DNA of 64,000 nucleotides from Siphonodentalium dalli (lineage: Eukaryota > Mollusca > Scaphopoda > Gadilida > Siphonodentaliidae). The notes under the pieces were generated by a model. The model saw only the letters and a program-made list of their open reading frames with translations, did no database searches and was not told the DNA's origin. Made by a program: the position numbers and the translations under genes. This document shows positions 5,027 through 33,740 of the stretch, piece after piece (position 1 is the stretch's first letter; each line of letters begins with the position of its first letter). The stretch spans positions 57,806,025 to 57,870,024 of the forward strand of contig CP136068.1 of the NCBI GenBank assembly GCA_032622095.1, read 5' to 3'.

Positions 5027-6305
5027 TAGCTCAACTTAACGCAAGTTTGAGCTATTGCCATGGGTTGGCATCCGTCCGTCAAAATTTCCGTTCGCACACC
5101 CTACAGGTCATATCTCTTATCTGATCATCACCAAACTTCATAAGGGTGACCTCTAGATGGGAGCCATCAATTTTTTCTGAATTTATTTTTAAAACATGGT
5201 GGGCAGTAGCCATCTTGGATTTCAAATTTGAATTATTGGAGAATTGTTTTGAAAATTTACATGCATGTTTACGATCACCTCTAGATGGGAGTATCAATTT
5301 TGAACAATTTTCGATGAAAAACGTGGCTGCTGCAGCCATCTTGTATTTTACTCTTTGCATGACTAAATCCTTTGGCACACTACAAACCACGTCCTTCATC
5401 CGATCATCACCGAACTTCATACGGATCTTCAGGGTGACCTCTGTATGCTAGCCATTAAATTTTTTACAAATTTCGTTTAAAAACATGGCCACAAGAAGCC
5501 ATCTTGGATTTTACTAAATCCTTTGGCACACCCAACAGGCCACCTCTCTCATCCAGTCATCACAAAACTTCAAATGGATCTTCTGGGTGATCTCTAACAT
5601 GGCCACTAGCAGTCATCTTGGATTTCAAATTTGATTTCATTGGCACACCGTGTAGACCACAGTTATTGGAAAATTTACTCTTGTCCTCTAGATGGAGGCT
5701 ATCGAATTAGAACATTTTCGATGAAAAATATGGCTGCCGGCAGCCATCTTGAATTTTACTCTTTGCATGACTAAATCCTTTGGCACACTCTACAGATGAC
5801 ATATGTCATCCGATCGTCACTAACCTTCACACGGATCTTCTGAATGACCACTAGATTTGAGTCCTCAAATTTTTCTGAATTTCATTAAAAAAAACTTTGC
5901 AGCCTTTGATTTTACTCTTTGCATGGCTGAATCCTTTGGCACACCCTACAGACCACATCCCTCATGCGGTTGTCCCCAAACCTCATATTGATCTTCGGGG
6001 TGACCATTGGATGGGAGCTATCAAATGTTTTTGAATTTCAGCCAGCAGCCATCTTAGATTTCACTTATATATAGCTCTCTCCATGATGACATTTAGTATT
6101 ACACATTTTAACCACTAGATGGGAGCCATCAAATTTTTCTGAATTTTGTTGGAAAACATGGGACGCCAGTGGCCATCTTGGATTTTACTCTTTATATGAC
6201 TAAATCCTTTGGTACACCCTACAGACGACATCCCTTGTTTGATAATCATTGCTACACATGAACTTAACCCTATCCAAGTTGAGCTACAGTGTCATTGACA
6301 CTTTC
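5027..6305 (+). mobile_element. Family-2 hairpin-headed element, HINE-like, complete
   Basis: It starts TAGCTCAACTT after a T-run, followed by GTTTGAGCTATTGCCATGG, so the 5' tip can fold back on itself. The body is built of diverged repeats with the phrases GGCACACCCTACAG, CATCCGATCATCACC, CCTCTAGATGGGAGC and AGCCATCTTGGATTTTACTC, recurring every ~150-250 bp. The 3' end reads AAGTTGAGCTA, an inverted copy of the 5' tip, then the hairpin AGTGTCATTGACACT and TTTC. A terminal left tip, a subterminal right copy and a 3' hairpin are the layout known for Helentron/HINE elements. No protein is encoded. Confidence 0.72.
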
Positions 6306-7608
6306 ACTTATTGTTGAATTAATACTGTAACAGTAACAGTCCCTCTAAATCGTCAAAAATATATTAAATGGTTGGAACATTATCTAACAAGATGTTGGTA
6401 CTGGTTAATATGTTAAACTGGATCCTGCTTGATCTAAATAAAAACCAAATTGGTTTTATATCTAGACATTAATTGCTGAAAAATAGCCTAGTATTCTGTT
6501 AACAGAGCATATACACTCAGCATTTATCCGTGTGAATATGTGAGCACCTCCTTATTATTAATTGCTACTCAGTATATGCCAAGTTCACTGCTCATGGTGG
6601 TTCTTCATTAAGCCAGGCTAACCTGCTATGTCACATGTTCGTCATGAAGCCAGTCTAAATTAAATGCTACCATCTATTTGTGAATAATTGGGTGTAATGT
6701 CTCCACAGTCTGCATAACTGTGTTAAATGTTATTGTTACATTACATTAATGTGTTCAGACATACCACCATGGGCAAGATGGAATGGTCTATTTCAACTTA
6801 GTCAGGACCCACTATTGATTACATGTTTACTTGCTCTCAAGGGGATTGTGAAGTGACAAATTTTAAATTGGGACTTCCATGCAAATCTTGGGGCAAAAGT
6901 TAAATATGAGAACCAAAGCAGGTATATCATTGAACGGTCCTAACATTTAACTGGTGGGTGCGGTGCGCTAGGTAAATTATTATTAAAAAAAACAGCTATA
7001 AATTTATTTTTATTAGGAATTGCAACACTCTACCTACTTTTGAAAAATCAATATAATTTTTTTTTTTAAATACACAAATATTCTAATGTAACAAGTTTCA
7101 AGCCGCCCCGCCAGATAAATATGTATTGTCTTAATGTTTTAAATACTGCATCAAGTCACACCCATAATTATTTGCAACTAGGTAACTTTTGAGATTTGCA
7201 TTGAAATTCCCATTAAATATTGGTCACTTGACATCCCCCTTATGAACCTCCCCCTTCTTAACCAGTCGATGTGAAGAACTCCCTATTGATGAATTATATT
7301 GAATTACAAAAAAATACTTTGTTACAAAATGTTTGTTACAATGTTCACAGCAAGAAATAATAACCACTCTCTACGCATGTTCTGTTGAACTTGTGAAGAT
7401 ATTCTTGTTTGTAAACCAGCTTCAAGTTTCATATATGATGAGCTATATTCATGTACCTTGCTCAAGTAAGGGTTGGAAATAATTAAACTTATTTTGGGGT
7501 CAGATTCTTTATATGCAAAATATAAAAATTATTGGTACCTCAAGATAAAACAAAACCAATACTATGATAAAAGCTAATGCCAATTAGTCTTGGAGCTGGT
7601 GTAATTTG
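6306..7608. other. No feature seen
   Basis: AT-rich spacer between the first family-2 element and an inverted-repeat element. I see no coding potential and no clear repeat structure in it. Confidence 0.5.
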
Positions 7609-8121
7609 CTAGTCCAAGTCTGCTCGTACTAAAACCAGCTAAGATATTGGGATAGCAAGATACTAGTTTTAGTATGAGTATGTCCTGTTACCATTTGTAT
7701 GACCTGAGTTATGCCCAGGGTCATATGGTTTTTAATCTAACTTTCATGTTAAATTACACATAGAATATTCCGGATTATTAGGACTAATATCGGTTTGTTT
7801 ACGTTTCAACTGAAAGCTGAAGTGTTCCGGAATGTACTCGGCTAAGTTTGGCTTTTATGCCAAGTTTGAATGTGCCCATAACAATTGAATACGCCCATTA
7901 CTCGTTGTTGGGTCGATTCCGGCCAAAGGCCAGGTAGGATGGTCGGACTGCAGTTTGCACGTCCCCTTCGCCCTTTACTCAACTTCGTGTGCTATTAATA
8001 TATCCCACCACAATTATGTCTTTATTTGTATTGTAAGTGGTCCTACATTACTTATTATTAACATTTCTTAAACGATATCCCAATATCTTAGCTTGTTTTA
8101 GTATGAGCAGACTTGGACTAG
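7609..8121. mobile_element. MITE-like inverted-repeat element, 513 bp
   Basis: Two 45-bp arms, 7609-7653 and 8077-8121, are inverted copies with a few mismatches; the tip is CTAGTCCAAGTCTGCTC. The centre (about 420 bp) has no coding sequence. Flanks both contain TAATTTG (left directly adjacent, right a few bases out), so the target duplication is not resolved. This is the shape of a non-autonomous DNA transposon; the superfamily is unassigned. Confidence 0.55.
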
Positions 8122-8338
8122 TAAGTAATTTGCATGACTTGGGGGAGGAGGGTGTCATGTAGATATCTCCCTTGGCTTACTCAGACTGGAGCTGACAACA
8201 GAGTCACTCAGCAGAATTCATTCTATTTCTGTCAGTGCCTTACCAGACATGATACAATGACCTGATTAAAACAATTTTGTTGACATTTTTGTTTATTCCA
8301 ATTCCAAAACAAAGTGGGCATATACTGTATTTACTGTT

Positions 8339-8541
8339 GTTGTCCCCCGAAAAAAAATTCGGGGGACTATTAAAATAGCCGGTGTCCGTGCTTCCGTCCG
8401 GAAATGGTTTCCAGATGATAACTTTAGTTTCGGTTATTAGATCAAAAGCAAATTTCATAGGTGAGTTTATCAGACCAAAATACAGGTCAAGTTCGAATAT
8501 GGGTTTGCTCTGCTCATTTTTGCGAGAGTTATGGCCCTTTT
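8339..8541 (+). mobile_element. Family-3 hairpin-headed element, 5' part
   Basis: It opens with a strong hairpin, GTCCCCCGA-A-run-TTCGGGGGAC, followed by ACTATTAAAATAGCC and CCGTGCTTCCGTCCGG, then GGTTTCCAGATGATAAC. A family-2 element interrupts it at 8542 and the same repeat phrases (GTTTCCGGATGATAAC, GCGAGAGTTRTGGCCC) resume at 9884. It has no coding sequence. Confidence 0.62.
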
Positions 8542-9883
8542 TAAGCTCAACTTACTTTGTAAGTTTGAGCTATTGCCATGGTTTGGTGTCCGTCAACAAT
8601 TTCCTTGGGCGCGGGCTACAGGTCGTACCTTTGGTCTGATCTTTATGAAATTTGTCATGAATGGAGATGGGAACGAGTCATTTTGGGGTCATTCGGCCAA
8701 AAAACATGGCCGCTGGTGGCCATCTTGGATTTCAAAATTCAATCCATTGGCGCGGGCTACAGGTCGTACTGTTCGTCTGATCATCATGAAATTTGTCATG
8801 GATGTTAATATTGACATGTAGATGGGAACGAGTCATTTTGGGGTCGTTCGGCCAAAAAACATGCCCGTCGGCAGCCATCTTGGATTTTACTCTTTGCATG
8901 ACTAAATCCTTTGGCGCGGGCTACAGGTCGTAGTTTTGGTCGGAAGTTCGGAACTTCATGAAATTTGTCATGGATGTTAACAATGACATGTAGATGGGAA
9001 CGAGTTATTTTGGGGTCATTTGTCTAAAAAACATGGCAGCCATCTTGGATTTTACTCTTTGCATGACTAAATCCTTTGGCGCGGGATACAGGTTATACCT
9101 TTGATCTGATCTTTATGAAATTTGTCATGAATGTTGACATTGACATGTAGATGGGAACGAGTCATTTTGGGGTCATCTGGCCAAAAAACATGGCCGCTGG
9201 TGGCCATCTTGGATTTCAAAATTCAATCCATTGGCACGGGCTACAGGTCGTACTGTTCGTCTGATCATCATGATATTTATCATGGATGTTAATATTAACA
9301 TGTAGATGGGAACGAGTGTTTTGGGGTCGTTTGGCTAAAAAACATGTCCGCCAGCAGCCATATTGGATTTTACTCTTTGCATGACTAAATCTTTTGGTGC
9401 GGGCTACAGGTCGTAGCTTTGGTCGGAACTTCATGAAATTTGTCATGAATGTTAACAATGACATGTAGATGGGAAACGAGTCAGTTTGGGGTCGTTCAGC
9501 CGAAAAACATGGCAGCCATCTTGGATTTTACTCTTTTTTTGCATGACTAAATCCATTGGCACAGGCTACAGGTCGTACGTTTGATCAGATCATTATGAGA
9601 TTTGTAAAGGCTGTAGATTGGAACAGGTCATTTTGGGGTAATTCGGAAAAAACATGGCTGCCGGTGGCCATTTTAGAATTTACTCTTTGCATCAATAAAT
9701 CCTTTGGCACACCATAATCACCACATCCCTGATCCGATCATTATGAAACCTGTCATGAATGTTGATATGGACATCTAGTCTTACTTAGACATTTCAATTA
9801 GCACCTTTCCTATTCCTCCATTTACTGTCAACCATTAAATTATTCCCCTACCTAAGTTGAGCTTCAGTGTCATTGACACTTTC
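8542..9883 (+). mobile_element. Family-2 hairpin-headed element nested in family 3
   Basis: The head is TAAGCTCAACTTACTTTGTAAG, and the end is AAGTTGAGCTTCAGTGTCATTGACAC plus TTTC. The body is four to five diverged tandem units carrying GGCGCGGGCTACAGGTCGTA, ATGAAATTTGTCATG, GACATGTAGATGGGAACGAG and AGCCATCTTGGATTTTACTC. This GGCGCGGGC variant differs from the GGCACACCC variant at 5027-6305, so at least two subfamilies exist. Left and right flanks together read as one family-3 copy, which shows it inserted there later. Confidence 0.72.
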
Positions 9884-10312
9884 ATTTACTTAGAATCTTG
9901 TAATTTTCTGGTTTCCGGATGATAACTTCAGTTTGTGTGATCATATAGGAACCAAATTTGGAATGTGGGTTTATCAGCCCTATGTACAGGTCATGTTCGA
10001 ATATGGGTATGCTCCGCCCATTTTTGCGAGAGTTGTGGCCCTTTTTCGACTTGTTTTACTTAGAAAATTTCTCACTTTTTCGGTTTCCGGATGATATCTC
10101 AAGTTTGGATCCTTTAATTGCAAACACCGTTTTTATGTGGATCAGTCATATCAAGATACAGGTCAAGTTCGAATTTGAGTTTGATCCGATGATTTTTCTC
10201 AGAGTTATGGGCTTTTCGACTTAGAAAATTAAATTTTTCTTGTAATTTTCTTCATTTTGTGCCAATTTGAGGTTATATTTGGACTTTAAGAGTTTTTTTA
10301 AGATTTGGTATT
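9884..10312 (+). mobile_element. Family-3 element, 3' continuation
   Basis: It continues the family-3 copy after the nested family-2 element. Two diverged tandem units share TTACTTAGAA, TTTCCGGATGATA and CAGGTCAWGTTCGAAT. The 3' terminus of the family is not recognised. Confidence 0.5.
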
Positions 10313-12139
10313 TAGCTCACCTGAGACGAAGTCTCCGGTGGAGCTATAGTCATCACTCCTCGTCCGTCCGTCCGTCCATCAACAATTCTTTAAACATCTC
10401 CTCTGGAACCATGAGACCAAATGGGTTCATATTTGGTGTGGATGGTCCCTAGATGACTGTCATTCAGATTTGTTCAAATGAGGTCACTGGGTCAAATAGT
10501 TGCGAAGCCAGGGCCATAACTCTGTAATTCTTACAACAACTTCTCAAATTTCATTGGGTTCATATTTGGTACAAAGGGTCTTTGGGAGACTGTTATTCAG
10601 ATTTGTTCAAATGAGGTCACTGGGTCGAATGTGTGCGGAGCCAGTGACATAACTCAAACAAACAAAAATTTTGGTCAAATTCAGATTTTTGGAATTTTCA
10701 CCTTACTCAATTTAACAACAACAAAAATTAAGCATGTTATAAAATTTTAAAAAAGTGACACCATTATAACATCTTCAGAGTTATGAAACTTTAATCTTTA
10801 ATCTTCTGAAATTACAGAAATATTCCATTACCCATCCCCCCTTCCACATGGCACAGACCCTGCAGTGGCCTGCACCCAACCAACATCCCTTCCAATGGAT
10901 ATCATTTTCAGCTTCCAACATTAATACCTGTTCTATTAAAGTTGCAGATATCTCTTTGTGGATAGACAGAGAGAAACACAGGTCATTAATCTAAATTAGA
11001 ATAAATTACTGCTAGCAATTTTAAACAAACTGCCTGAATTTAGTGTGTCTGACATTTGCAGGTCAGAGAATCATTTATAAGAGGCACAATCTATCATGTA
11101 TTGTTCAACAGGGCAAATAGGATGTCTGTCATTTGCAGAATGAGGTCCCTAGATGGTGAATTTAGTGATGCTATCCCACATAGTGGGCTAGCATCACCAA
11201 ATAAACCCTCTGGATACCTCATTCTGCTTAGGCCTCATCTTCTTGGAAGTATCTATAGTATCAAATTAACATTGTTGTTAGTTGCATTTCCCATCTAGGA
11301 AGTTTCTATATCCCCTAATTTGCAGAAGATAAAATTCTTAATTGAGGTGTCCAATGGGTGAACATCAACTTCAACTGGGGAACTTCAATCTTATCCTAGG
11401 TCTGCCATAGCAGTCGAGGGCCTTAGCAGAATGAGGTCCCCAGAGGGTGAATTTAGTGATGCTAGCCCACTGTGCAGGATAGCGCCACTAAAGTCACCCT
11501 CTGGGGGACCTCATTCCGCAAATGACAGACACACTATCACACTATTTCAAGGTTTGATTGTATAATGCATTGTGTTGCTTGAGGCCAGGCACATACAATG
11601 TAGGAATAGGTACACTATTTGCAGGCTTGCTCCTTTGGTGATTGTGGTTCAGATTTGTTCAGTCAGGGTCACCAGGTCAAGTAGGTGCAAGGCCAGCTAC
11701 ATTACTCTTTCTCTACATAGTAATTCATGATGTGTCTTTTATGCAAGAATCAAATGGCCTATTTTGCTTATATTTGGTATGAAATTACCTTGGGTGACAG
11801 GTTTGTGAAAATGGGATCACTAAGTCAAATAAGGGCAGAGCCAGAGACTTAACTATTTCACTTGATAGTAATTCTTAAAATATGTTTGCAAGAATTAGTT
11901 GGCTTATTTAGCTTGGAATGTTCTTGTTTGACTGCAATTCAAATTTTTAGTCTTATTGTTTGACGAGGGACGGTTGGCGGGCGGCAACTGCGGACCTAAA
12001 GAATGCCTTATAACTTTGACATTTGTTAACGGATTCAATTTTGGTATGTGATTTGCTCCCAATGACTATTTACTGCCTGTAGAAAATGGGTCACGTCCGA
12101 ACTTTTTTTTTGACAAGAGTTATCCATCTTTGATGACTT
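10313..12139 (+). mobile_element. Family-1 hairpin-headed element, copy A (5' intact)
   Basis: The head TAGCTCACCTGAGACGAAG folds on CTCCGGTGGAGCTATAG and is followed by a CGTCCGTCCGTCC tract. The body repeats CATATTTGGT, CAGATTTGTTCAAATGAGGTCACTGGGTC and CATAACTCTTTCCCTCCATAGTAATTCTTAAAA in diverged tandem units. An internal segment near 11100-11530 repeats GCAGAATGAGGTCCCYAGA. The family-1 3' terminus is absent; copy B starts directly behind it. No coding capacity. Confidence 0.65.
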
Positions 12140-13680
12140 TAGCTCACCTGAGACGAAGTCTCCGGTGGAGCTATAGTCATCACTACTCGTCCGTCATCCA
12201 TCTGTTCGTCCGTCAACAATTCTTTAAACATCTTCTCCTCTGAAACCATCAGACCGATTGGGTTTATATTTGGTGTGGATGTTCCCTAGGTGACTCTTAT
12301 TCATATTTGTTCAAATGAGGTCACCAAGTCAAATAGTTTTGATGTCAGGACCATAACTATTTTTCCACATAGTAAATCTTAAAACGACTTCTTTTCTGAA
12401 GTTGTCGGCCCGAATGGGTTCATATTTAGTATGAGGGTACCTTGGGTGACTGTGGTTCAGATTTGTTCAAATGAGGTCACTGGGTCAAATGTGGGTGGGG
12501 CTATGGACATAAATCTGAATTTTTTTCATTTTATTTTTATCGATTCAACTTATTGCTCAATTTAACCACAAAAATATATATATATATTATTTTTAATAAA
12601 TATTTGTTTTTTATTAAATAAAATATTTTATTTTTAAATAAAATAAAAAAAAACTCATTAAAATTTTGAAGAACCTATGACATTACATCTTTGGGAGGGG
12701 AGGGGAGGTACCTCTAGTCACTCCACTATATTTGGTTGAAATCAGGGGTTTGGGAGAAATCAGGAACAGGAACTATTTCACTACATAGTAATTCTTAAAA
12801 TATGTTTGCAAGAACTAGTTGGCTTATTTAGCATGGAATGTTCTTCCTTGACTGCAATTCAGATTTTTTTTAATGGGGTCACTTGGTCAAATAGGGGCCA
12901 AACGAAGGACAGTTTCCCTCTTAATATGCTTCCTTCTCAAGGACCATCAGTTCTATTTTGCTGATATTTATCATATGTATGAAGGGTTCTTATGTGTCTG
13001 GGATTCAAATTTATTCAGATGGGGTCACCAGGTTAAATAGGGTGGGACCAGGGACATAACTATGTCTCTATAGTAATTCTTAAAATGTCTTCTCAAGAGA
13101 GGTTGGACTATTTAGCTTACATATAGTATGGAGCAATAAGGAGGATCCTTAAGTGACTGAGATTCAGATTTGTTAAAATGAGGTCAATTTGTCAAGAAAT
13201 GGTGGGGCTATGGGGAGTTAACACTTTTGTGTCTAATAAAATCATTGAAATACCAAATTCATTAAAACATCTACCTGGGAACCACCTGACTGATTAATCT
13301 GACATACATGTATTGTGTTTTGGGTCCATGGATAATTGGGCTTCAAACATGTCTAAATGGTATTGGAAAAAGACACTTGTGAGATTGGAAATTTTCAACA
13401 ATCGAGAAAGTTTGAGGTGTCAGTTGTGAAATTCCAACCTAAGACTGGGAGTCTGTTGAGCTGGAGGAGGAGGGGGTGATCAGTAGTGTACAGTTGGTAA
13501 TTTCAAGGTGGATTTTCACCAATCTACATATGTGAAGTCTCTCTAGCCACATATCCTGTTTAGAGCTATTTCTTTTAAAGTGATTATGAAAAGTTCTGAC
13601 TGTTGTAGTCTCCAGAGTCCCAGTCTTATCCGTCTTTGCAGTCTGGTGAGCGACCCCACAGTCATTGACTGTCTTGTTTG
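12140..13680 (+). mobile_element. Family-1 element, copy B (both ends present)
   Basis: The head is TAGCTCACCTGAGACGAAG. The 3' end has TCTGGTGAGCGACCCC (GGTGAGC is the inverse of the 5' tip) followed by the hairpin ACAGTCATTGACTGT and CTTGTTTG. Near 12708 the sequence GTACCTCTAGTC is uninterrupted. In the paralogous copy D the same site carries a hAT insertion, so copy B shows the empty site. No protein is encoded. Confidence 0.7.
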
Positions 13681-14984
13681 AATGCATGTCAGTAATGAGA
13701 CAATGCACAAGTGTCTTATCCATATAGTATACTTCTACAAAGCCTCCGCTCCAAATGAAGCCACCGGTTCGGTGGACACTGTGGCCGAGCGGCCTTTTAT
13801 TTTTGTTAAGTTGGTCTGGTTTTTGGAACTCAAATTTAACCCAGTTGCCTTCAATGATTTCATATTCCAGTTACTATCCAAATATCTTTGTCACTTTTCT
13901 CTCTAAGAATCATCACACTTCATTATGCCCCGTAAATGAATTTGGGAGGTAAAAACAGTCTTGATTATTACAGTGAAGTAACTTTGGCATGGGGTTCCGG
14001 CACTGTTTAGTATTATTTCCATGTGGTCCATTGAACACTTAATTGACATGGGAAGTTCCAACTTGTTCTACCGCCGACGGGGTATCTCGAAAACTAGAGG
14101 ACTTTTTCGATCAAAGCGCTCTACTATTATGGGGGATGTCAGGCTGGAAATTTTCGACAGTTGGAGAGCTTGAAGTACCAGTTGTAAAATTCCAACCTAA
14201 AACGGAATTGTGTGAACTTTGGACTGTGGTCTGGTTGTCTTGTTTAAAAAGGGTAGCGCGGGTTGGAGATTTGTCAGTTGTGTGCTATTGATAATTTCTA
14301 GGTGAATACCCCTACTCAACGGATAACCTCCAGCTATGCATGTTCATGTCTATAACTACCTGTCTTAAGTTATTTTGACAAGTCCCAGTCTTTACAGTCA
14401 GGTGAGCTACGTACCTGGAGTCATTGACTGTCTTGTTATCTTTAAGTGCCAAGGGCCAGAATTGAATGATCTTTGGTATGTGTGGCCCATGAACCCGGCA
14501 CACAGAAATTAGAATGTTCACATGCAGCAGGTTTTGTCCATTCGGTGTATGCTCGCCAAAAGAAAGCTACACACATCTAGTTCTCGCTCTCCGCAATAGA
14601 TGGTAAACTTCAATATAATATCAAGTTTGCTTGTTGGCATAGCTTTATCGCTGTAAAAATACAATACAGCTGTTCCACTGCATTGCTTTTGACTACTTTA
14701 TTGTAGGTCAGTCGTCGATCGAAAAATGAAACTGCTCGTATCCGGTCAGTGGGGGTGTTGGCGAATATCGGTCTTTCTTTAGACACAAAAATGAGCCCTC
14801 TACGTGCTATATTCATCGAGACATTGGCCGTCCCACGCATTTTCAAATTCTGTTCAGCATTCCGTCCCATCCTGCAGACTGCCATGTCCACACCAATGTG
14901 GCAGTTCTTTCAGTTTTATATACCAGTATATCTAAATCAAAAGCAAAATAATGTGAACCGTAGCTGATAAAACGTCATATATTC
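13681..14984. repeat. Spacer with a diverged family-1 3' fragment
   Basis: At about 14130-14436 a diverged copy of the family-1 3' part ends with CAGGTGAGCTACGTACC and GGAGTCATTGACTGTCTTGTTA, a clearer GGTGAGCTA tip than in other copies. The rest (13681-14040 and 14437-14984) has no feature I can name. A 93-codon minus-strand frame at 14610-14891 shows no recognisable domain. Confidence 0.45.
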
Positions 14985-15945: not shown

Positions 15946-15950
15946 ATTGT

Positions 15951-16993
15951 TAGCTCAACTTTATAACGTAAATTTTTAGCTAATACCATGGGTTGGCGAC
16001 CGTAGTCCGTGCACGCGTGTGTGCGTCAACAGTTTCCCTCGGCACGTCCTACATGCCGTATCCCTCATCCGATCTTCACCAAACTTCTTATGTAGCTTCA
16101 GGGTGACCTACATATTTCCCGAATTTCGTTGAAAAACATGGCTGCCAGCAAACATTTTGGATTTAAAATTTGAATCCATCGACACACCCTACAGCCCAGC
16201 CCGTATAATTATTTAATTTTGCAGGCACGATTGTAATCATCTGTAAATGAGAGCTATCGAATTTGAACGATTCTCGATGAAAAATATGGCCGCCGGCAAC
16301 CATCTTAGATTTTACTCTTTGCATGACTTAATCCCTAATTGGCACAACCTACAGACCACATTCTTCATCCGATCATCACCAAACGTCATATGGATCAATG
16401 GGTTGACCACTAAATGGGAGCCTCTTATTTTGACTAAAATCTATTGAAAAGTGTGGCCGCCAGCGGCCATCTTGGAATTTACTCTTTGTATGACTAAATC
16501 CCTCGGCACACCCTATGCAGGCCACATCTCTCACCCGATCGTCACCAAACTTCATATGATCTCTAGATGGGAGCCTCCTATATTGACCGAAATTTGTTTG
16601 TTTTTTTAAACATGACCACCAACAGCCATCTTGGATTTCAAAGTTGAATCCACCGGCACACCCCGCAGCCCGCATTCATTGGAGAATTGTTTTGAAAATT
16701 TACGTGTATCTGTAGAATCACCTCTAGATTAGAGCTATCAAATTTGAAAAATTTTCGATGAAAAACATGGCCGCCGGTAGCCATTTTCGATTTTACTCTT
16801 TGCATCACTAAATACTTTGGCACACCCTGCATCCAACATTCCTCATCTGATGATCAGCTTCGGGGTGACCTCTAGATGGGAGTCTCCTATTTTGACCGAA
16901 ATTCGTTGAAAAACATGGCATCCAGCGGCCAACTTGGAATTTACTCTTTGTATGATTAAATCCTTTGGCGCACCCTACAGACCACACCCCTCA
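15951..16993 (+). mobile_element. Family-2 element, 5' part, split by LINE-A
   Basis: The head is TAGCTCAACTTTATAACGTAAA, followed by GGCACACCC-type tandem units. The copy breaks at CCTACAGACCACACCCCTCA. The expected continuation (CCGAT.TTCACCAAACTT, AGGGTGACCT.TAGATGGGAGC) appears at about 33454-33617, on the other side of the LINE. It is the outermost host of the nested block. Confidence 0.68.
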
Positions 16994-17407
16994 ACAATAA
17001 TATATAACAATAATATATAAAGAATCAAGTGTAATTATTGTGTGGGAATGGCATAACCAGGATTGGCTGTCTTCCCGTCACCCCCGTTGTCAAATATAAT
17101 AACTAATATATCAATGGCATAATCTCAAGTTGATGTGCTAATAAGAAAATACTGTAATTTATAATATCAAAATATTGTATTAAGTACAGTGTACCGTATA
17201 GTTATGGCTATGTATGCGTGTGCACGGCAATTTAAAGAACACTTTCTAATAGTAAGTTGGACCCTGCTTAAGTAACAATGATAATGCGTATGTGATATTT
17301 AAATCGTGTTAGCAGGGTCCAATAAGGGCGAGTTTTCAGGGTAATCGGCACTCACTACCAGGGAGGCGGCTGGCTTGTTACTCGGGAGTTAAGTATATGT
17401 AGTTTAA

Positions 17408-17827
17408 TTATGAGCTTTTGGGAGGAAAACATTCTCTGCAAGTTTTGTTTTTACATTTAAAGTTTGCATCATATGCATTGATAACATTGACCTTCATTTG
17501 ATATTTAAAGTTTTGTCGGCTTTCAATTGATTTTAGTTTTTTGTCAGTTTCATTCCATAATCTTGGGAATGAATGTTTAGGTAAAACCTCTGAGAATTTC
17601 GTTCGTGATTTAATTTCCCTAATGCACCCAGATTGTCTGGTGATTGATATCTTGTTGTCAAATGCTGTTAGAAATGATGCCGGTAGGTTAAAATGTGTCC
17701 CATCATACATAAACAGACTAACATGACCGGCATGCAAATCTCTGAATTTCAAAATATTTCTTTTTTTGAATAAGGGTTCAGTGTGGCTGTTGTATTTGGC
17801 ATAGCTTATTGTTCTGATAGCTCTTTT
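17408..17827 (-). pseudogene. LINE-A ORF2, C-terminal part
   Basis: This frame of 139 codons ends in a stop at 17408. It starts with KRAIRTISYAKYNSH, the conserved segment that follows the reverse transcriptase thumb in LINE ORF2 proteins, and has PKHSFPRLWN in the middle and CKNKTCRECF near the end. The phase joins the frame left open at 25319, where the reading stops at SNKAFPL. The two pieces are therefore one gene split by the family-1 array. There are no internal stops, so the insertion may be fairly young. Confidence 0.8.
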
Positions 17828-20713
17828 TAGCTCACCTGAGACGATGTCTCCGGTGGAGCTATAGTCATCACTCCTCGTCCGTCCGTCCGTCCGCCACTCT
17901 CACGAGAGCGTACTTGTGGGGTGCGATGAAATTAACATTTTTTTTTCCTAACTGTTTTATTCCACAAACATCTCCGTTATTTCGTTAATATAACATTTCT
18001 CAGATTATGTGTTTTTTTCTGAAATACGTATTTAGAGAAAAAAAATATTTAGAAAAAACGTAATATTAACGAAATAACGGAGATGTTTGTAAAACAGTTT
18101 ATAACACCACTATTGACCGGTTGCAACCCACAAGTCACTCAAACAAAAGATCGCACCTCACAAGTATACTCACGTCGGTCCGTCCGTCCGTCAACAATCA
18201 TCTTCTTCTCCAGTATCATACGGCCAAATGAGTTCATATTTGGTGTGGATGTTCCCTGCTTGACTCAGACTCAGATTTGTTAAAATAAGGTCACTGGGTC
18301 AAATAGTTGCGAAGCTAGGGCCATAACTCTTTCCCGCCATAGTAATTCTTAAAACAACTTCTTTTCAAGAACCATCAGGCCTATTTAGCTTATATTTGGT
18401 ATGGAAGGTCCTTGAGTGACTGGGGGTCAGATTTGTTCAAATGGGGGCCGTGTCAGGAACATAACTTTAAAAAAAAAAATATTGTTAAATTTAAATCCTT
18501 GCTCAATTCAAAAAACAAATCACAATTCAAAATGAACCAATACAAATTGTTTTTTTTTTATTTTAACCCCTGATTTTTTGTATTTTTTTAGACACAAAAC
18601 ACCCCATTCCATCCCTTTCCCTCCTCACCCCTCTACACCCCTGTCCCCACTACCACCCCCCCCCCCCCCAATCTGCGCCGCCCTGCACCCACTGCAGTCA
18701 AGAAAAAATTAATTAGAAAAACTGACACCTTGTAACATCCATAAAGTATGGTATTAGCCCCAGACAGAAAGAGTTAATAACAGTCATCAATTCAGATGTT
18801 ATCTAGCTGGCTGACAGGTAGGTGTAAACAGTCATGCTCTGTGTATCATTAACATATCATATCAAAACAAACTGCTGTATGTCTGACATTTGCAGAATGA
18901 GGTCCCCAGAGGGTGAATTTAGTGATGCTACTCTGCACAGTAGGCTAGCATCACCAAATACACTCCAGGGACCTCATTCTGCTTAGGCCTCATCTTCAGG
19001 CAAGTATACAGGTCTTAAATTGACATTTCTACTTACTTTTTCCCTTCTGTTCAGTTTCTATATTCCCTAATTTGCTGTCAGAAGATAAAATTGATAATTG
19101 AAGTGCCCAATGGGTGCACACTTCAATCTGTTCCTATGTCTCCCATGGCAGTTGAGGCCTAAGCATAATGAGATCCACAGAGGGTGAATTTGATGATGCT
19201 AGCCCACCTTACAGGATTGCAGCACTAAATTCACCCTTTAGTGACCTCATTCTGCAAAAGTCAGACACTATATTCAGGCTTGGCTGTTCCACTATTATAT
19301 TCTTAACCACCACCTATCCAGTTGTACTCATTATACCCTGATTTGCAAAGAAAACTTGGGGGGGGGGGGGTATATTGGATTGAATTTGTCTGTCAGTATG
19401 TCCTCCCGTCCATCCCTCTGTTGGGATGTTTCCATCCGTCCATCAATTTTGTTCTTCTCCACATACATATTAAAGACCGAAATGGTTTATATATTTTGAC
19501 TCGCATTCAGATTTGTTCAAATGAGTTCATCAGGTCATATAGGTGAGAAGCCAGGGCCATAACTCTTTCCCTCCATAGTAATTCTTCAGAAACCATCAGG
19601 CCTATTTAGCTTTTGGTATGGAGGGTCCTTTGGTGAGTGGGGTTCAGATTTGTACACGTGAGGTCATTTTTAGGAAACTTTTGAGGAAAATCAGTTTTCT
19701 TCAACTCTTAAAATCTACCGTTTGAAATTTCTAGATGAATAGATCTCATAGATGGGGATTCACATTTGTTCAAATAAGGGCAGAGATAAGAGATTTAACT
19801 CTCAACCACCCACCCTACCTGTATGTATGCTGTTTGATACTGGTATAATAATATATAGATTCCTATTGATTTCTAAGCTGCCTGGGTGGAGGCAATGAGG
19901 CTGTCCACATTTTCCTACTTCGGGTTAAACTATTCGACCGAAATCGCCACAAATGTTAACAGGTCTATTTTGCTGATATTTAGTATGAAGGGTTCTTTGG
20001 TGTCTGGTATTGAAATTTATTCAGATGTGGTCACCAGGTTAAATAGGGTGGGACCAGGGACATAACTGTATGTCTCTATAGTAATTCTTAAATTGTCTTC
20101 TCAAGAGAGGTTGGACTATTTAGCTTACATATAGTATGGATGATCCTTTATTGACTGATATTCAGATTTGTTAACATCAGGTCAACCTGTTAAGAAATGA
20201 CGGGGGGCTATGGGGAGTTAACAATTTTGTGTTTAAAAAATCATTGAAATACCAAATTCATTAAAACATCTTCCTTGGAACTACCTAACTGATTAATCTG
20301 ACATACATGTATGGTGTTTTGGGTCCATGGATAAATGGGCTTCAAACATGTCTAAATGGTTTTATAAAAAAGTGCTTGTGAGATTGGAAATTTCCAAAAA
20401 TTGAGAAAGTTTGAGATGTCGGTTGTGAAATTCCAACCCAAGACTTGGGAGTCTGGAGCCCGGTCGTGATGGGACTTGTTGAGCTGGAGGAGGGGGGGGT
20501 GATCAGTAGTGAACAGTGGGCAATTTCATGGTGGATATTCACCTTGAAATTACCCACTGTACACTACTGAAGCCTCTCTAGCCACATATCGTGTTTAGAT
20601 CTACTTTTTTCAAAGTGCTTATGAAAAGTTTTGACTATTGTGGTCTCCAGAGTCCCAGTCTCATCAGTCTTTGCAATCTGGTGAGCGACCCCACAGTCTT
20701 TGACTGTCTTGTT
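17828..20713 (+). mobile_element. Family-1 element, copy C (both ends present)
   Basis: The head is TAGCTCACCTGAGACGATG and the end is CTGGTGAGCGACCCC with hairpin ACAGTCTTTGACTGT. A TA-flanked MITE lies at 17913-18164. Near 19330-19460 an internal module, ATACCCTGATTTGCAAAG to GGGGGGTATATTGGA followed by CCGTCCATCC tracts, resembles another hairpin-headed family. The body also has the GCAGAATGAGGTCCCCAGAG segment seen in copies A and D. Confidence 0.66.
17913..18164. mobile_element. TA-flanked MITE (Tc1/mariner type), 252 bp
   Basis: The ends CTTGTGGGGTGCGAT and ATCGCACCTCACAAG are inverted repeats, and both are flanked directly by TA (17911-17912 and 18165-18166). An inner inverted pair of about 50 bp carries CAAACATCTCCGTTATTTCG. 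A TA target duplication is the hallmark of Tc1/mariner elements. It has no coding sequence and interrupts the CGTCC tract of family-1 copy C. Confidence 0.75.
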
Positions 20714-21392
20714 TTTTAATTTGGCCAAAAAAAAATTGGCCAAAAGATTTTTCAGCCCAGCGTGAACACTGGTTGCGATCATAGCTGAAGTTAACTAACA
20801 CTCAGTCTACAGTCACACTTTTTAGCTCACCTGAGACGAAGTCTCCGGTGGAGCTATAGTCATCACTCCTCGTCTGTCCGTCCGTCCGTCAACAATTCTT
20901 TAAACATCTTCTCCTCTGAAACCATCAGACCGATTGGGTTTATATTTGGTGTGGATGTTCTCTAGGTGACTCTTATTCAGATTTGTTCAAATGAGGTCAC
21001 CAAGTCAAATAGTTTTGATGTCAGGACCATAACTATTTTTCCACATAGTAATTCTTAAAACGACTTCTTTTCTGAAGTTGTCGGGCCGATTGGGTTCATA
21101 TTTGGTATGAGGGAACCTTGGGTGACTGGTTCAGATTTGTTCAAATGAGGTCACTGTGTCAAATGTGGGTGGGGCTATGGACATAAATCTGAAGAAATAT
21201 TTTTTTTTTTAGATTTAACTTATTGCTCAATTTAACAAACAAAAACAAAATTATATATATTTTATTTTTAATAACAATTTTTTTTTTATTAAATAAAATC
21301 TTTTTTATTTAAATAAAATAAAAATAAAATTTAATTAAAATTTTGAAGAACTTATGACATTACATCTTCGGGGGGGGGGTATGTACCTCTAG

Positions 21393-23062
21393 CAGGGATG
21401 GGGTAATTGTAATTGATTGTAATTAATTACATTTTTTCAAGTAATTGCATGTAATTGGTAATTGAGTTTATTCTCAATTACATGTAATTGCAATTGTAAT
21501 TGGTTTGGATGTAATTGTAATTGTAATTAGGGTTTAATTTCAATTACATCAAAATCACAGGTACTTGTTTCTTCTCAAAGTTCTCTTTCATGATTCACCC
21601 AATGGTTTCTTCAAATGGTTTTTTTTCCAAAATTTCAAAGTGTAAGACTGGTGACTGGCTATCACTATGTTGTCACAACACTGAGTTTTTATCCACTGTG
21701 TCTCAATGGTGAATTCTGTTGACACATCCTGTTTGTTTGCTTAAGCATTGGTTAACCTTTTAGTAGGCTTGTTTTTTGATAAATACAATGAGAAACCAAC
21801 TTAAAATAATAGACAATATATCACTATAATATATCACTCTTATGATAATGTTTCATTATCTCCATCTGATATGGTATATATGCTATGGTAGAAATTCATA
21901 CCAACCATTGCTAATGCTATGAGCATGTTTACAAAAAATCTGGCATCATTTTAATTTGCAGAAACACACATCGTGTCCTATGAAAGCGAAGTGCAAACTT
22001 TGCCCAACTACAATATCCAGTTCCAAAAAAGTTACCTCCAATTTTGTGACACATCTGAAGGTAAGTTTCCATTTCTATGTATTAGCTTTGTTTCATTCCA
22101 TTGACATATAACTTCCGTCATATGGTGGTATTGGTAATTTAATTTATTTTTGTAATTCTTTTTCACCATTTGTACCACGATTGTGGTTTATGTGAATAAA
22201 CAATTTGATTTGATTTGGTATATGCATTGTTTCTTGTGCCTTCTAATTTGCAACTGAATGACAAAGAGGGGACACATATCTGCTTCAGTAATCCCCCAAT
22301 TAGCACTGTCTATTGGAGGCATTGTGTTACCAATAAGCTGGTGGCTACAAAGGCTAATTAAGATTATGACTCTAATTAACAATCAGAGTGTTGATTATCT
22401 CATTGTCCTTTACAATTGGCCTGACTGTGTGTCTGGCTTACTGAGATAGTCTTATTCCCTTAATAATTAAATGATGGATACATGTGTGTTACTAAAATAC
22501 TCTATTATTTTCATTTTATAGCGAAAGCATCAAGATGTCTATGAATCAACAGTCACCCAGGCACCATCAGCAAGTGATCAACAACCTACTAGGATCTATC
22601 AGTATGCAAAAACATCGGTCAAGAATGCGGAAAGCATTGAAGATAGTTAGCAAAGTTCATAAATGTCTTATATCATTCCAATTTTTAGAAGATCAACACC
22701 GACTACAAGCTGCCAATGCAACACACTGGAATTGCCAGCTATAAATCATGATTCGCTCAGTTCTACGAACACCTATACTGGACTCAGTACATTGGCTGCT
22801 CTGCACCAAGTGTGCTTCACCATGTATTTCATCTTGCTTGTATTAAATTTATGTTTTGTTATCAAATAAAGTTTATATAAATAAAAAGTGTTCCTACATC
22901 AATTATGTGCTGAAATGTAATTGTAATTGAATTACATTTCAAAGTAATTGTAATTGTAATTAATTACATTGTGAAATAGATGTAATGGGAATTGTAATTG
23001 AAAAATGTTGAAGTAATTGTAATTGTAATTAATTACATTCACAAGTAATTGCCCCAAGCCTG
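21393..23062 (+). mobile_element. hAT-type DNA transposon, 1,670 bp, partly decayed
   Basis: The termini are CAGGGATGGGG and CCCCAAGCCTG (inverted, imperfect), flanked by the 8-bp duplication ACCTCTAG at 21385-21392 and 23063-23070. Eight-bp duplications with CAGGG-type ends define hAT elements. Subterminal AATTGTAATTAATTACA-like repeats occur at both ends. The paralogous family-1 copy B has a single ACCTCTAG at the same place. Only a BED zinc-finger part of a transposase remains. Confidence 0.85.
21962..22650 (+). pseudogene. BED zinc-finger N-terminal remnant of a hAT transposase, two exons
   Basis: Exon 21962-22060 follows TTTGCAG and ends at AAG|GTAAGT. It encodes CPMKAKCKLCP, then SSKKVTSNFVTHLK, the Cys-x2-Cys and His half of a BED finger. 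Exon 22522-22650 follows TTTTATAG and continues in phase 0 with RKHQDVYE, the usual end of a BED finger, then a Ser/Gln-rich linker to a stop at 22648-22650. BED fingers bind transposon ends in many hAT transposases. The catalytic core is missing, so this is a truncated gene or a non-autonomous derivative. The first exon with the start codon is not identified. Confidence 0.72.
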
Positions 23063-24424
23063 ACCTCTAGTCTCCCCACTAAATTTGGTTGAAATCAGTG
23101 GTTTGGGAGAAAAGATGAACAGACAGATGTACAGAAATGTTCAGTAAATTCCTTTTAATGCTAGTATCTGTGCATTCCCATTACAAGCCAACTCTGCTCT
23201 GAACTGGCAGACATGACACATGTTGTTTATAATCAGGGCCAGATAGAAAGATAAGAGAACTTCTGTAGATATAGGCAGAGTCCCCAGGGAGTGTATTCAT
23301 GTCATTCATAATTTAAATGAGATTAATGGTGTTGTACATTTGTTTTCTGAAGTTGTCAGTAGCACCATCATTGTTTACAATACAATGGTCATTAATATCA
23401 GATTAAATTAATTTTCTCAGAGCTTTAAGTGTGTCTGGCATTGTAGAATGAGCTTCCCAGAGGCTAGCATCGCCAAATACATCCTATGAGACCTCATTCT
23501 GCTTAGGCTTCATCTTCTGGGAAGTATCTAGAGTCTCAAATTGACATTTTTAGCAGCTCTTTTCCCTTCTGTTCAGATTTTAAAATCCATAATTGAGGTG
23601 TTAAATGGGTGCGCATACTGTCATATGTCAGTAATGTCACCAACTTCAGCTGGAGAACTTCTGTCTGTCCCTAGGTCTCCCATAGCAGTTGAGGACTAAG
23701 TAAAATTGGGTTCCCAGATGGTGAATTTGGTGATGCTAGCCTACCTTACAGAATAGCATCACTACATTCACCCTTTTGGGACATCAGACACACTAAATTC
23801 ACGCTTGGCTGTTCCAATATTATTTTCTTAACCACTTAGCTATGTGATCTCATTATACCTTATTATGGACAAAAAAGTGTGGGGGTATATTGGATTAAAT
23901 CTGTTGGTCTGTTGGAGTGTCCTTCCATCCATTGTTCTGTCCATCCATCCATCAACAATTGTTTTCTTCTCGAGATCTATATGAATTCCCTACCTGTATG
24001 TGACTCACATTCAGATTTGTTCAAATAAGTTCACCAGGTCAAATAGGAGGGGTGCCAGGGCCATAACGTTTTCCCTCCATAGTAATTCTAACAACTATTA
24101 CTACTCAAGAACCATCAAGTCTATTTAGCTTATAGTTGTGTATGCAGGGTCCTTGGGTGGCATGTTTAAATCTGTTCCAATGGGGGCCTTTTTTTGAAAA
24201 TCAATTAACTTCAACTCTTAAAAGCGAATGTTTATAATTATAAGATGAATAGATATCAGAGATGGGGATTCATGTTTGTTCAAATAGGGACAGAGACCCC
24301 ACCCACACTACCTGTATCTATGCTGTACGCTACTGGTATAATAAGATAATGTCATATTCTTGCAGGGATGTCCCCACAGTGTTGGGGAGGTGATTTACAG
24401 ATTTGTTCAATGAAATGTAATTTT

Positions 24425-25318
24425 TGAGCTCACCTGAGACGAAGCTATAGTCATCACTTCTCATCTGTCACCTGTTCATCTTTCTGTCCGTCCATCAATC
24501 TGTCAACAATTCTGTGAACATCTTCTCTAGATCATAAGACTGAATGGGTTCATATTTGGTGTGGATTTTCCCTAGGTGATTCATATTCAGATTTGTTCAA
24601 ATGAAGTCACTCTTTCAAATGGTTGTGAAGCCAGGTCCATAACTCATGCCCTCCATGGTAATTCTTAAAAACGACTTCTTCTCATCTACCATCAGATATA
24701 GGGTGGGACCCGAGACATAACTGTATGCCTCTATAGTAATACTTAAAATGTCTTCTCAAGAGAGGTTGGACTATTTAGCTTACATATAGTATGGAGGATC
24801 CTTTAGTGACTGAGATTCAGATTTGTTAACATAAGGCAACCTGTTAAGAAATGACGGGGCTATGGGGACTTAACACTTTTGTGTCTAATAAAATCATTAA
24901 AATACAAAATTCATTAAAACATCTACCTTGGAACTACTTGACTGATTAATCTGGCATACATATATGCTGTTTTTGGGTCCATGGTTAATTGGGCTTCAAA
25001 CATGTCTAAATAGTTTTATAAAAAGGTGCTTGTGAGATTGGAAATTTCCAACAATAGAGAAAGTTTGAGATGACAGTTGCCAATCTAAGACTTGGGAGTC
25101 TGGAGCCTGGTCGGGAAGGGACATGAACTGGAGGAGGGGGGGGTGGTGATCAGTAGCGTACAGTTTGTATATGAAGCCTCTCTATCTACATATCCTGTTT
25201 AGATCTACTTTTTTAAAGTGATTATGAAAAGTTCTAACTGTTATGGTTTTCAAAGTCCCAGTCTTATCAGTCTTTGCAGTCTGGTGAGCGACCCCACAGT
25301 CGTTGACTGTCTTGTTTG
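24425..25318 (+). mobile_element. Family-1 element, copy E (short, internally deleted)
   Basis: The head is TGAGCTCACCTGAGACGAAGCTATAG, a shortened hairpin, and the 3' end is CTGGTGAGCGACCCC with ACAGTCGTTGACTGTCTTGTTTG. At about 0.9 kb it lacks the middle of the other copies. Its 3' end is the right junction of the array with LINE-A. Confidence 0.65.
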
Positions 25319-26881
25319 TAGTGGGAAGGCCTTATTGGATGATACTGAGTGCCCCCAAATTTGAATTCCATAGACAAGACGGCTTTGAATTAAGGCATAA
25401 TATAGCGTTCGAAGGGCATCTCCTGGGAAAAATTTCCTCACCTTGTTCATACCATATAGGGCTCTTGCCATTTTAGAACATACCGCCGAGGTATGGTCTT
25501 TAAACGTGAGGTTTTCATCGATTGTAATTCCGAGAAATTTTAGGGATGTTTCATCACTTTTGTTTCCAACACGCTTGAGTTCTACGTCGTTTATGTATAT
25601 CTTTAGAAAATTCCATTTGTCGTCATTGTTTTTTGGATGAAGAAGCATATATTTACTTTTAGTTTTGTTTATGGATAGGCAGTTACAACAACACCATTTG
25701 TAGACATCTTTTAGCTCATTGTTCACGATGTTTTCAATAAGATGGCCGTTATTGCCGGATGTGTATAGCGTAGTATCATCGGCGAATGATAACAATTTCA
25801 ATGAAGTTGCAGCAGACACATCATTCACGTAAATGAGGAAAATTGTCGGACCGAGTATGGAGCTCTGGGGTCGGACCGAGTATGGAGCCCTGGGGCACTC
25901 CGTTGAGTATACCATTAAGACTAGAAATACTACCATTGAAGTCAGTAAACTGTCATCTTTCGGACAAATAGTCTCTGAACCAATCATTCACAATGCCACG
26001 TATTCCATAGTGATCCATTTTACTTAGTAGGATATCATGACTAATTGTATCAAAAGCTTTTGAAAGGTCAATGAAAATGGCTAAGGTGGAGTCTCGAGTG
26101 GGTTCATCATTTTGTTCGACTACATCTTCAAGTAAGTGCATAACGGGATGTATTGTTGAGTGACTTTTTCTGAAACCATACTGATGTTCATACAGGGTAT
26201 CTAAATCATTTAAGAAATCTACCAATCTTTTAGACATTATTTTTTCCAATATTTTTGAGAAACAAGGCAATATACTAATGGGTCTATAATTACTGAATTC
26301 ATCCTTATTACCGCTTTTGTAGATCGGGACAACTCGGGACAATTTCATTTTTTGGGGAAATATGCCATATTTGAGTGATAAATTGAATATATGTTTTAGG
26401 GCGATTGCTATCTCTTCTACCGTTGCCTTCATTATCTTACTCGTTAAACCATGCACGTCTTTGCTATTTTTGCTTTTAAAATTTAGGCAAGTCAGTATGA
26501 TTTCTTGTTCATTAGTGGGGGCTAATTTTAATACATCTGTTTCCCTGTAAAGAAGATAATCTGAGTAATTTGCACTATGTTCATGTATGACTCTTTCACT
26601 TGTTTGTTGACCAACACTTGAAAAATAATCATTAAACTTTTCTGCTATATCTGTTTTATGAGTGATTTTTATCTGGTTATCTACAAATATAGAAGGAATT
26701 GAGTTTGCATTAGAAGTTTTATTGATCGCTCCATTCAATATCCTCCAGGTAGCCTTTATATCTCTCTTGTTTTGTTCCAATATATCACAATAGTACGTTT
26801 TCTTGCTTAGTCTTATTGTGCTTCTGTACGTCTGGCAGTACGACTTATATCTGTTTTTGTTTACTTCTGTTGGTGTCTTCA
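25319..26881 (-). pseudogene. LINE-A ORF2, reverse transcriptase
   Basis: The motifs in order are VVPIYKSGNKDEFSNYRPIS, YGFRKSHST, FIDLSKAFDTISHDIL (first catalytic Asp), GVPQGSILGP, SFADDTTLY (catalytic Asp pair) and ALIQSRLVYGIQIWGHS. Two lesions are visible: a TGA at 25953-25955 after DYLSER, and a 25-bp tandem duplication at 25845-25894 that repeats the SILGP region and shifts the frame. Catalytic residues are retained. Upstream it abuts the family-2 insertion at 26887; downstream it is cut by the family-1 array. Confidence 0.85.
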
Positions 26882-26886
26882 ATTTT

Positions 26887-27771
26887 TAGCTCAACTTTAC
26901 TTTGTAAAGTTTGAGCTATTGTCATGGCTTTGTCGTCCGTGTGTGTGTGTGTGTGTGTGTGCGTGATGCGTCAACAATTTCCTTTAGCACGGGCTACAGG
27001 TCGTACCTTTGGTCGGATCATTATGAAATTTGTCATAGCTGTTGACATTGACATGTAGATGGGAACGAGTCATTTTGGGTTCATTCGGGAAAAAAAACAT
27101 GGCCGCCAGTGGCCATCTTTGATTTCAATATTCAATCCATTAGCACGGGCTGCAGGTCGTACTGTTCGTCTGATCATCATGAAATTTGTCATGGATGTTA
27201 ATATTGACATGTAGATGGGAACGAGTAATTTTGGGGTTATTCGGCCAAAAAACATGGCCACCGGCAGCCATCTTAGATTTTACTCTTTGCATGACTAAAT
27301 TCTTTGGCACGGCCTACAGGTCGTACCTTTGGTCGGATCATCATAAATTTTTTCTTGGATGTTAACAATGACATGTAGATGGGAACGAGTCATTTTGGGG
27401 GTCATTCGGCAAAAAAACATGGCCGCCAGCAGCCATTTTGGATTTTACTCTTTGTATGACTAAATCCTTTAGCACGGGCTACATGTCGTACCTTTAGTCT
27501 GATCATCATGAAATTTGTCATGGCTGTTGAAATTGGAATGTAGCGGCCATGTTGGATTTCAAAATTCAATCCATTAGCACGGGCTACAGGTCATACTGCT
27601 CGTCTTTTTGGGATCATTTGGCAAAACAAACATGGCTGCCAGTGGCCATCTTAGATTTTACTCTTTGCATAACTAGGCCTTTCAACTTTCCACATTCCTA
27701 ATCACTCCATTGACTTTAACACATGAAATTATTCCCTTTCCAAGTTGAGCTACAGTGTCATTGACACTTTC
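26887..27771 (+). mobile_element. Family-2 element, 885 bp, precisely inserted in LINE-A ORF2
   Basis: The head TAGCTCAACTTTACTTTGTAA is followed by GTTTGAGCTATTG, a GT microsatellite, GGCACGGGC-type tandem units, and the end AAGTTGAGCTACAGTGTCATTGACAC plus TTTC. ATTTT occurs on both sides (26882-26886 and 27772-27776). Keeping one copy restores LINE-A's reading frame across NKLYIK and KTPTEVNKN. This gives exact element limits. The ATTTT could be a 5-bp duplication, or part could be T-run element ends with no duplication. Confidence 0.8.
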
Positions 27772-27776
27772 ATTTT

Positions 27777-32764: not shown

Positions 32765-32767
32765 TCA

Positions 32768-33617: not shown

Positions 33618-33740
33618 TAGCTCATGCAACTTTACATGTAAAGTTTGAGCTATTGCCATGGGTTGGTATCCGTCGACCTTGTGTGTGTACGTGCGTGTGT
33701 GATGGATGGTATGTGTGAGGGTGTGTGTGTGTTAAGGTGG
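33618..33740 (+). mobile_element. Family-2 5' head fragment
   Basis: TAGCTCATGCAACTTTACATG and AAAGTTTGAGCTATTGCCATGG form the usual head hairpin, followed by a GT-rich microsatellite to about 33735. The body units are absent, so it is a truncated copy or a recombinant. Confidence 0.55.

Follow-up and report, generated by a model that had tools for sequence, protein, structure and literature searches.

Two repeat families with HINE-type ends and a common 3' hairpin core in the genome of the scaphopod Siphonodentalium dalli

To characterize two families of repeats that lie close together in the genome of Siphonodentalium dalli, we analysed 64,000 nt of its forward strand (GCA_032622095.1, CP136068.1:57,806,025-57,870,024; hereafter the window) and searched the assembly of 2,226,750,531 bases in 9 contigs. 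The window holds copies of both families, called here family 1 and family 2, together with a long interspersed nuclear element (LINE) that hosts some of them. Both families are very probably non-autonomous Helentron/Helitron2-type rolling-circle transposons (HINEs) with repeat-rich bodies. Left ends of family 2 lie at 5027, 8543 (where the first base is A), 15951 and 26887, and its right ends at 6278-6302, 9856-9880 and 27744-27768; family 1 has left ends at 10313, 12140, 17828 and 20823, a decayed one at 24426, and right hairpins at 13659, 14418, 20694 and 25297. The ends quoted for both families in an earlier note on this DNA were found where it had placed them. Motif counts in the window were compared with 100 dinucleotide shuffles: GTCATTGAC occurs five times (shuffle mean 0.76) and TAGCTCAMC ten times (shuffle mean 0.52), numbers reached in none of the shuffles. 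A literature text search for the string GTCATTGAC gave nothing related among the matches listed. Further copies were studied in genomic loci that carry L numbers below.

The left ends of both families are hairpins, TAGCTCAACTTTACTTTGTAAAGTTTGAGCTA in family 2 (26887) and TAGCTCACCTGAGACGAAGTCTCCGGTGGAGCTA in family 1 (20823). As DNA these fold at -9.6 and -9.4 kcal/mol, respectively, and none of 200 shuffles folded as well; the left hairpin of the 5027 copy folds at -6.9 kcal/mol, with one of 200 shuffles as good. Across these three folded window copies z-scores ranged from -3.5 to -5.2. The 5' repeat, variously termed a subterminal inverted repeat (subTIR) or an asymmetric terminal inverted repeat (ATIR), lies within the 0-4 nt of the end expected of HINEs and, like theirs, forms a hairpin in both families. 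The two common left stems of family 2 differ by one whole base pair (CTT...AAG versus CTTT...AAAG), and a GT/GTCC microsatellite-like stretch follows the left hairpin.

At the right end, family 2 carries AAGTTGAGCTA, which is exactly complementary to the left arm and is followed by a hairpin (6-bp stem, 3-nt loop) and by TTCAT(T); family 1 carries GGTGAGC, a hairpin and CTTGT. The 3' subTIR therefore stands upstream of the 3' palindrome, in the order known from HINEs, about 21 nt from the model end in family 2 and about 26 nt in family 1. In family 2 the pair TAGCTCAACTT/AAGTTGAGCTA is identical at 11 of 11 positions; among the four right ends of family 1 in the window, subTIR identity extends over about 12 bp in the 14401 copy only and over about 7 bp in the other three. 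For members of one family, the rule of Thomas asks for identical subTIRs of at least 11 bp (PMC4067079). The earlier note had described the hairpin as 3'-terminal. A hairpin is indeed present, but it does not form the very 3' end, because about 6 nt are conserved beyond it in family 2 (TTCATT) and CTTGT follows it in family 1. In an alignment of family 2 right ends, columns were conserved to 6-7 nt past the hairpin and flat beyond. Its 65 rows represent 59 sites, six counted twice through overlapping loci, and since most rows were picked by the exact hairpin pattern, only the conservation of the tail is an independent result. For the same reason a looser count, in which 54 of 56 family 2 right ends were exact, says little about decay.

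Some family 2 ends occur close together. Paired right ends lie 92, 138 and 156 bp apart in L011, L016 and L029 (overlapping L012, L017 and L030), with no left end detected between them, and may be nested copies or duplicated terminators. On the minus strand of L036, a right end at 4252-4276 lies within the repeat array of another family 2 copy, 597 bp before the outer right end, and is a nested insertion. On the minus strand of L045, left ends at 2472 and 3105, 633 bp apart, have the same 30-base upstream flank and may reflect a local duplication or a rolling-circle by-product.

The right hairpins of the two families, AGT-GTC-ATT-GAC-ACT and ACA-GTC-ATT-GAC-TGT, have an identical core and loop, with two outer pairs changed on both sides of the stem. 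The subTIRs of the families differ (AAC versus ACC). Conservation is not strict: two decayed family 1 copies in the window have the loops TTT and GTT, and in the 14418 copy GGA replaces ACA, so that its outer stem is broken. The bodies are unlike. Family 2 bodies include arrays of 155-165-bp units, and family 1 bodies contain related units of about 140 bp that are scattered; Tandem Repeats Finder reported no array of ~140-bp period in family 1 bodies. A blastn comparison of four window pieces of each family at an E-value of 0.01 gave no hits. These results bear out the earlier proposal that the families keep a layout and a hairpin core (GTC-ATT-GAC) while their bodies differ.

Paired family 2 copies in the loci and window (n = 23) span 681 to 3,815 bp. 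A domain scan of 10 of the 29 frames of at least 180 aa in the window and loci found LINE, integrase and TatD DNase domains, and two frames had no match; the TatD DNase frame is probably a host gene. Ten right ends (L034, L035, L036, L038, L039, L040, L044, L047, L050 and L051) were viewed as possible parts of long elements, several of them having no left end in the sequence analysed around them. Their upstream frames were mostly short, which, as a judgement by length, is weak evidence against long elements.

Both families are abundant. The exact family 2 right end, GTTGAGCTNCAGTGTCATTGACACTT, occurs 13,526 times in the genome (6,828 + 6,698) and that of family 1, ACAGTCATTGACTGTCTTGT, 5,215 times (2,644 + 2,571), and reversed-pattern controls for the two were absent. 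The genome was also searched with a query of 421 bases comprising a family 1 right end, the spacer of the composite block described below and a left end, with 40 of 3,562 candidates scored. Besides the window itself, the 43 matches comprised 28 right-end, 12 left-end and 2 internal pieces, at 95-99% identity except for one left end (80%) and the internal pieces (92% and 77%). The model end is at query position ~153; all 28 right-end matches stop at 156-172, and 26 do so by 163. All 12 left-end matches start at 253-260, just before TAGC at 264. Among the scored copies, therefore, family 1 elements begin and stop at the proposed ends, within the uncertainty of the T run that flanks them. With 40 of 40 family 1 end matches among the scored candidates stopping just outside these ends, and family 2 right ends losing conservation past the tail, the copies sampled elsewhere agree with the boundaries proposed in the earlier note.

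Insertion is into T-rich sequence. The hairpin pattern found 25 left ends of family 2 in the loci and window, and every one of them has T at positions -4, -3 and -1, with T (15), A (8) or G (2) at -2, one flank (L045) being counted twice. At seven family 1 left ends, T stands at -4 in six, at -3 in five, at -2 in six and at -1 in all. The model target is about TTWT^T, close to the TTTT^T/C of Helitron2 in Chlamydomonas (PMC3627910) and the TNAT^T of FoHeli1/2 (PMC5148889). In L052, where the element lies within a tandem repeat, the other three copies of the repeat all carry an unbroken CCA-TTTTTT-AAT; as the flanks around TAGC...TTTCAT sum to exactly 6 T, any hidden duplication amounts to at most 2 T. 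At 26887-27773, where a family 2 copy interrupts a LINE frame with endonuclease (EN) and reverse-transcriptase (RT) domains, we tried 3-7 T at the join and found the frame stop-free over about 200 aa with 4 or 7; the end model predicts 7, and 4 would imply about 3 duplicated T. The copy at 8543-9885 lies in a diverged repeat that offered no clean empty site. No duplication of non-T bases was seen at the sites tested (two usable empty sites and two LINE frames), and a 3-bp TTW duplication was rejected: of the 23 paired family 2 copies, 8 have unlike bases at -2 and at 7 nt beyond the hairpin, among them L028 (T and A) and L039 at 3400 (A and T). Both families thus insert into T runs without a fixed-length duplication of non-T bases, as expected of HINEs, although duplication of a few T is possible.

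Table 1. Features of the two families and their surroundings in the window.
Feature	Positions	Strand
Family 2 HINE with TAGCTCAACTT hairpin left end, ~155-bp monomers, then GTTGAGCTA + AGTGTCATTGACACT + tail	5027..6307	+
Family 2 HINE, first base A, ~6 monomers of 155 bp	8543..9885	+
Family 1, left end 10313 and variant right end 14418-14436	10313..14436	+
Family 1 HINE, both ends present	12140..13677	+
Family 2 left end and monomers, no right end found (truncated); right limit approximate	15951..16995	+
Family 1 HINE A, composite block member 1	17828..20712	+
Non-LINE DNA of ~108 bp between A and B; T's at the edges not assignable	20713..20822	.
Family 1 HINE B, composite block member 2; nested transposon 21393-23062; decayed second left end 24426	20823..25315	+
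Host LINE, reverse-transcriptase part; frame resumes at 17823 with the block left out	25316..26886	-
Family 2 HINE inside the EN-RT frame of the minus-strand LINE	26887..27773	+
Host LINE, endonuclease part	27774..28510	-
Variant family-2-like left end TAGCTCATGCAACTTTACATGTAAAGTTTGAGCTA with extra stem bases, downstream of family-2-like monomers	33618..33652	+

The features of the locus are listed in Table 1. The family 1 element that begins at 10313 is probably an outer copy in which the element at 12140-13677 is nested. The transposon inside element B, which we take to be hAT-like, has the ends CAGGGATGGGG.../...CCCCAAGCCTG and an 8-bp duplication, ACCTCTAG. The LINE that hosts the HINEs also holds a foldback-like element at 28511-32768, with arms of about 1.26 kb (28529-29788 and 31474-32738).

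The part most worth following is the composite block at 17828-25315, formed by element A, the spacer and element B. When the LINE was joined from 25318 to 17823 with 1-8 T at the junction, an unbroken frame over about 280 aa was obtained with 3 or 6 T only, and the end model predicts 6. The same join with the 108-bp spacer retained breaks the frame. Since the frame is open without the block and broken with the spacer, a single T-run site holds A, spacer and B together, and the spacer does not belong to the coding sequence of the LINE. Over its first ~60 bp the spacer is similar to L041:9082-9196, at 86% across 43 bp and 74% across 61 bp of T-rich sequence; in L041 the counterpart comes after an unbroken T run that carries no element. 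The simplest reading of this resemblance suggests that the spacer is old 3' flank of A, carried along when the terminator of A was missed.

It is about as likely as not that the whole block is one transposition product. In such an event the terminator of A would have been bypassed and copying would have run through about 108 bp of old 3' flank and through B, stopping at the terminator of B, which would extend the classification of the families to a specific event. The LINE frame and the sequence at L041 both argue for it, and terminator bypass with 3' transduction is known in the bat Helitron Helraiser (PMC4778049) and proposed for Helentrons in the Discussion of PMC4067079. Against it, a right end, spacer and left end occur together in none of the 42 other matches among the 40 of 3,562 candidates scored, and the likeness to L041 is short and T-rich. 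Alternatively, A and B may have entered one T run in two events, or the DNA between them may be a small insertion of its own. A motif search for other LINE copies spanning the join found nothing in the loci examined. We tentatively propose that the block may be a natural record of Helentron-type terminator bypass, in which two HINEs and about 108 bp of former flank entered a single LINE T run as one unit. The two families would further suggest that such a terminator is read through the loop core GTC-ATT-GAC, with an outer stem that needs only to pair. Another closely spaced pair, resembling the one in the window, lies at C3:59255385-59255855, where a family 1 right end is followed 175 bp on by a family 1 left end on the same strand.

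To place the families among known systems, we compared them with published elements. As in HINE/DINE-1 elements (PMC4067079), both have a palindromic left subTIR, a copy of the subTIR before the 3' palindrome at the right, a T-rich TT target without target modification and, in some copies, tandem repeats; what goes beyond that description is the hairpin core common to two families. Cg_HINE of the oyster Crassostrea gigas (PMC7492417) likewise combines a left module of subTIR, complementary inverted repeat and GTCY-type microsatellite with a satellite-like monomer array, a right module of subTIR and palindrome, and a T-rich target that is not duplicated. This likeness is one of layout, the main text of PMC7492417 containing neither GAGC nor CTCACC. 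In the Helitron2 group (PMC3627910) the 5' ATIR forms part of a 5' hairpin, the 3' ATIR immediately precedes the 3' hairpin at 20-30 nt from the end, elements insert after TTTT, and compensatory changes between related families have already been published; the group also takes in elements without endonuclease. The Helentron-related signature recognized in the earlier note, a left repeat with a subterminal right copy and a 3' hairpin, accordingly matches the published HINE/Helitron2 layout. Exchange of the stem of the Helraiser 3' hairpin left about 90% of activity, and altering the ATT loop and its base was equivalent to deleting the hairpin (PMC4778049). The two families may parallel this, since they too keep ATT in the loop and change their outer stem pairs in compensation. 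Unlike the two families, Helraiser has the TC/CTAG ends of a canonical Helitron and a palindrome of 19 bp (PMC4778049), and two decayed family 1 copies have other loops.

A candidate driver was sought among Rep genes. A profile search with PF14214 (Helitron Rep) gave at least 151 matches in the genome, a lower bound from scoring 150 of 457 candidates, and none in 14 control genomes. Among the 150 matches listed, 99 score 160-216 bits in frames of up to 1,697 aa. Another 11, with examples at C8:82475387, C8:4875782 and C1:214418025, score 90-111 bits and have frames 1,835-2,864 aa long; the remaining matches of similar score are short or partial. The Rep domain of the mite Helentron matches PF14214 at E 1.6e-19 (PMC4067079). 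Because their modest score is like that of the mite Helentron and their frames are long, we infer that the 11 are of Helentron type. Some Rep genes lie in close same-strand clusters (C2:141795020 and 141803591; C1:179793298, 179805394 and 179817053, the latter at near-regular spacing), which are perhaps tandem rolling-circle products.

A Rep/helicase protein from an autonomous relative would nick the T run before TAGCTC and peel off one strand, with the 5' hairpin marking the start of copying. The 6-bp/3-nt hairpin and the 3' ATIR (AAGTTGAGCTA in family 2, GGTGAGC in family 1) would jointly mark the stop, and the single-stranded rolling-circle copy would enter a new T run (~TTWT^T), duplicating no more of the target than perhaps a few T. 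Since both families keep the layout and the GTC-ATT-GAC core, one enzyme may serve both.

Several observations weigh against a Helentron-type origin. Of 32 joined-flank queries, made from 27 elements and 5 further pairings, only 3 gave a spanning hit, and one of these hits was unusably diverged. The unfilled paralogues of L037, copies 87-91% alike, show a 7-T run in two cases, which fits a T-run target, and a broken run in one, where the end model predicts 8 T. Duplication of T alone is possible: L052 leaves room for 2 T at most, and the LINE frames by themselves also permit 4 T and 3 T, which would imply some 3 duplicated T. Folded by themselves, the 3' hairpins are only weakly more stable than shuffled sequences (z -1.4 to -1.9). 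In family 2 the hairpin lies 5 nt and the ATIR 21 nt from the 3' end; in mite HINEs these distances are 8-35 and 38-60 nt (PMC4067079), although the 20-30 nt range of the Helitron2 3' ATIR includes the 21 nt of family 2. Finally, no autonomous element with these ends was found, in an end check that covered the listed Reps on part of C1: there was no exact family 1 right end within 100 kb of the five listed below 70.9 Mb, and no exact family 2 right end within 100 kb of the one listed below 21.7 Mb, both weak negatives.

It is possible, though rather unlikely, that the families use different drivers and that their common GTC-ATT-GAC core reflects chance or old common descent. The differences in subTIR (AAC versus ACC) and outer stem, and the lack of body similarity between window copies, would fit separate drivers; the layout and T-run target common to both, and a 9-nt core that is identical in the two while the outer pairs change in compensation, speak for a single one. 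Canonical Helitrons (Helitron1; 5'-TC, CTRR-3', inserted between A and T) were rejected, because the ends here are TAGC ... TTTCAT or CTTGT and lie in T runs. Cut-and-paste miniature inverted-repeat transposable elements or foldback elements, with the hairpin ends as terminal inverted repeats, would account for short inverted repeats at both ends and for high copy number, but are very improbable given that a hairpin and a conserved tail lie outside the subterminal right repeat (in copies chosen by the right-end pattern, of which there are 13,526 exact ones) and that the sites tested show no fixed-length duplication of non-T bases; fixed-length target duplications are what the earlier note had named as pointing to a cut-and-paste transposase.

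The ends, the target and the copy number thus give good support for the two families as additional HINEs, a type already described. The autonomous partner of the oyster HINEs is left open in the text of PMC7492417. One of the ways in which tandem repeats spread is through HINEs whose bodies are satellite-like, and the presence in one genome of unlike bodies with a common terminator core provides a natural test of which hairpin bases the transposition machinery reads. The LINE-framed composite, if confirmed, would be a precise case of Helentron-type read-through and DNA capture.

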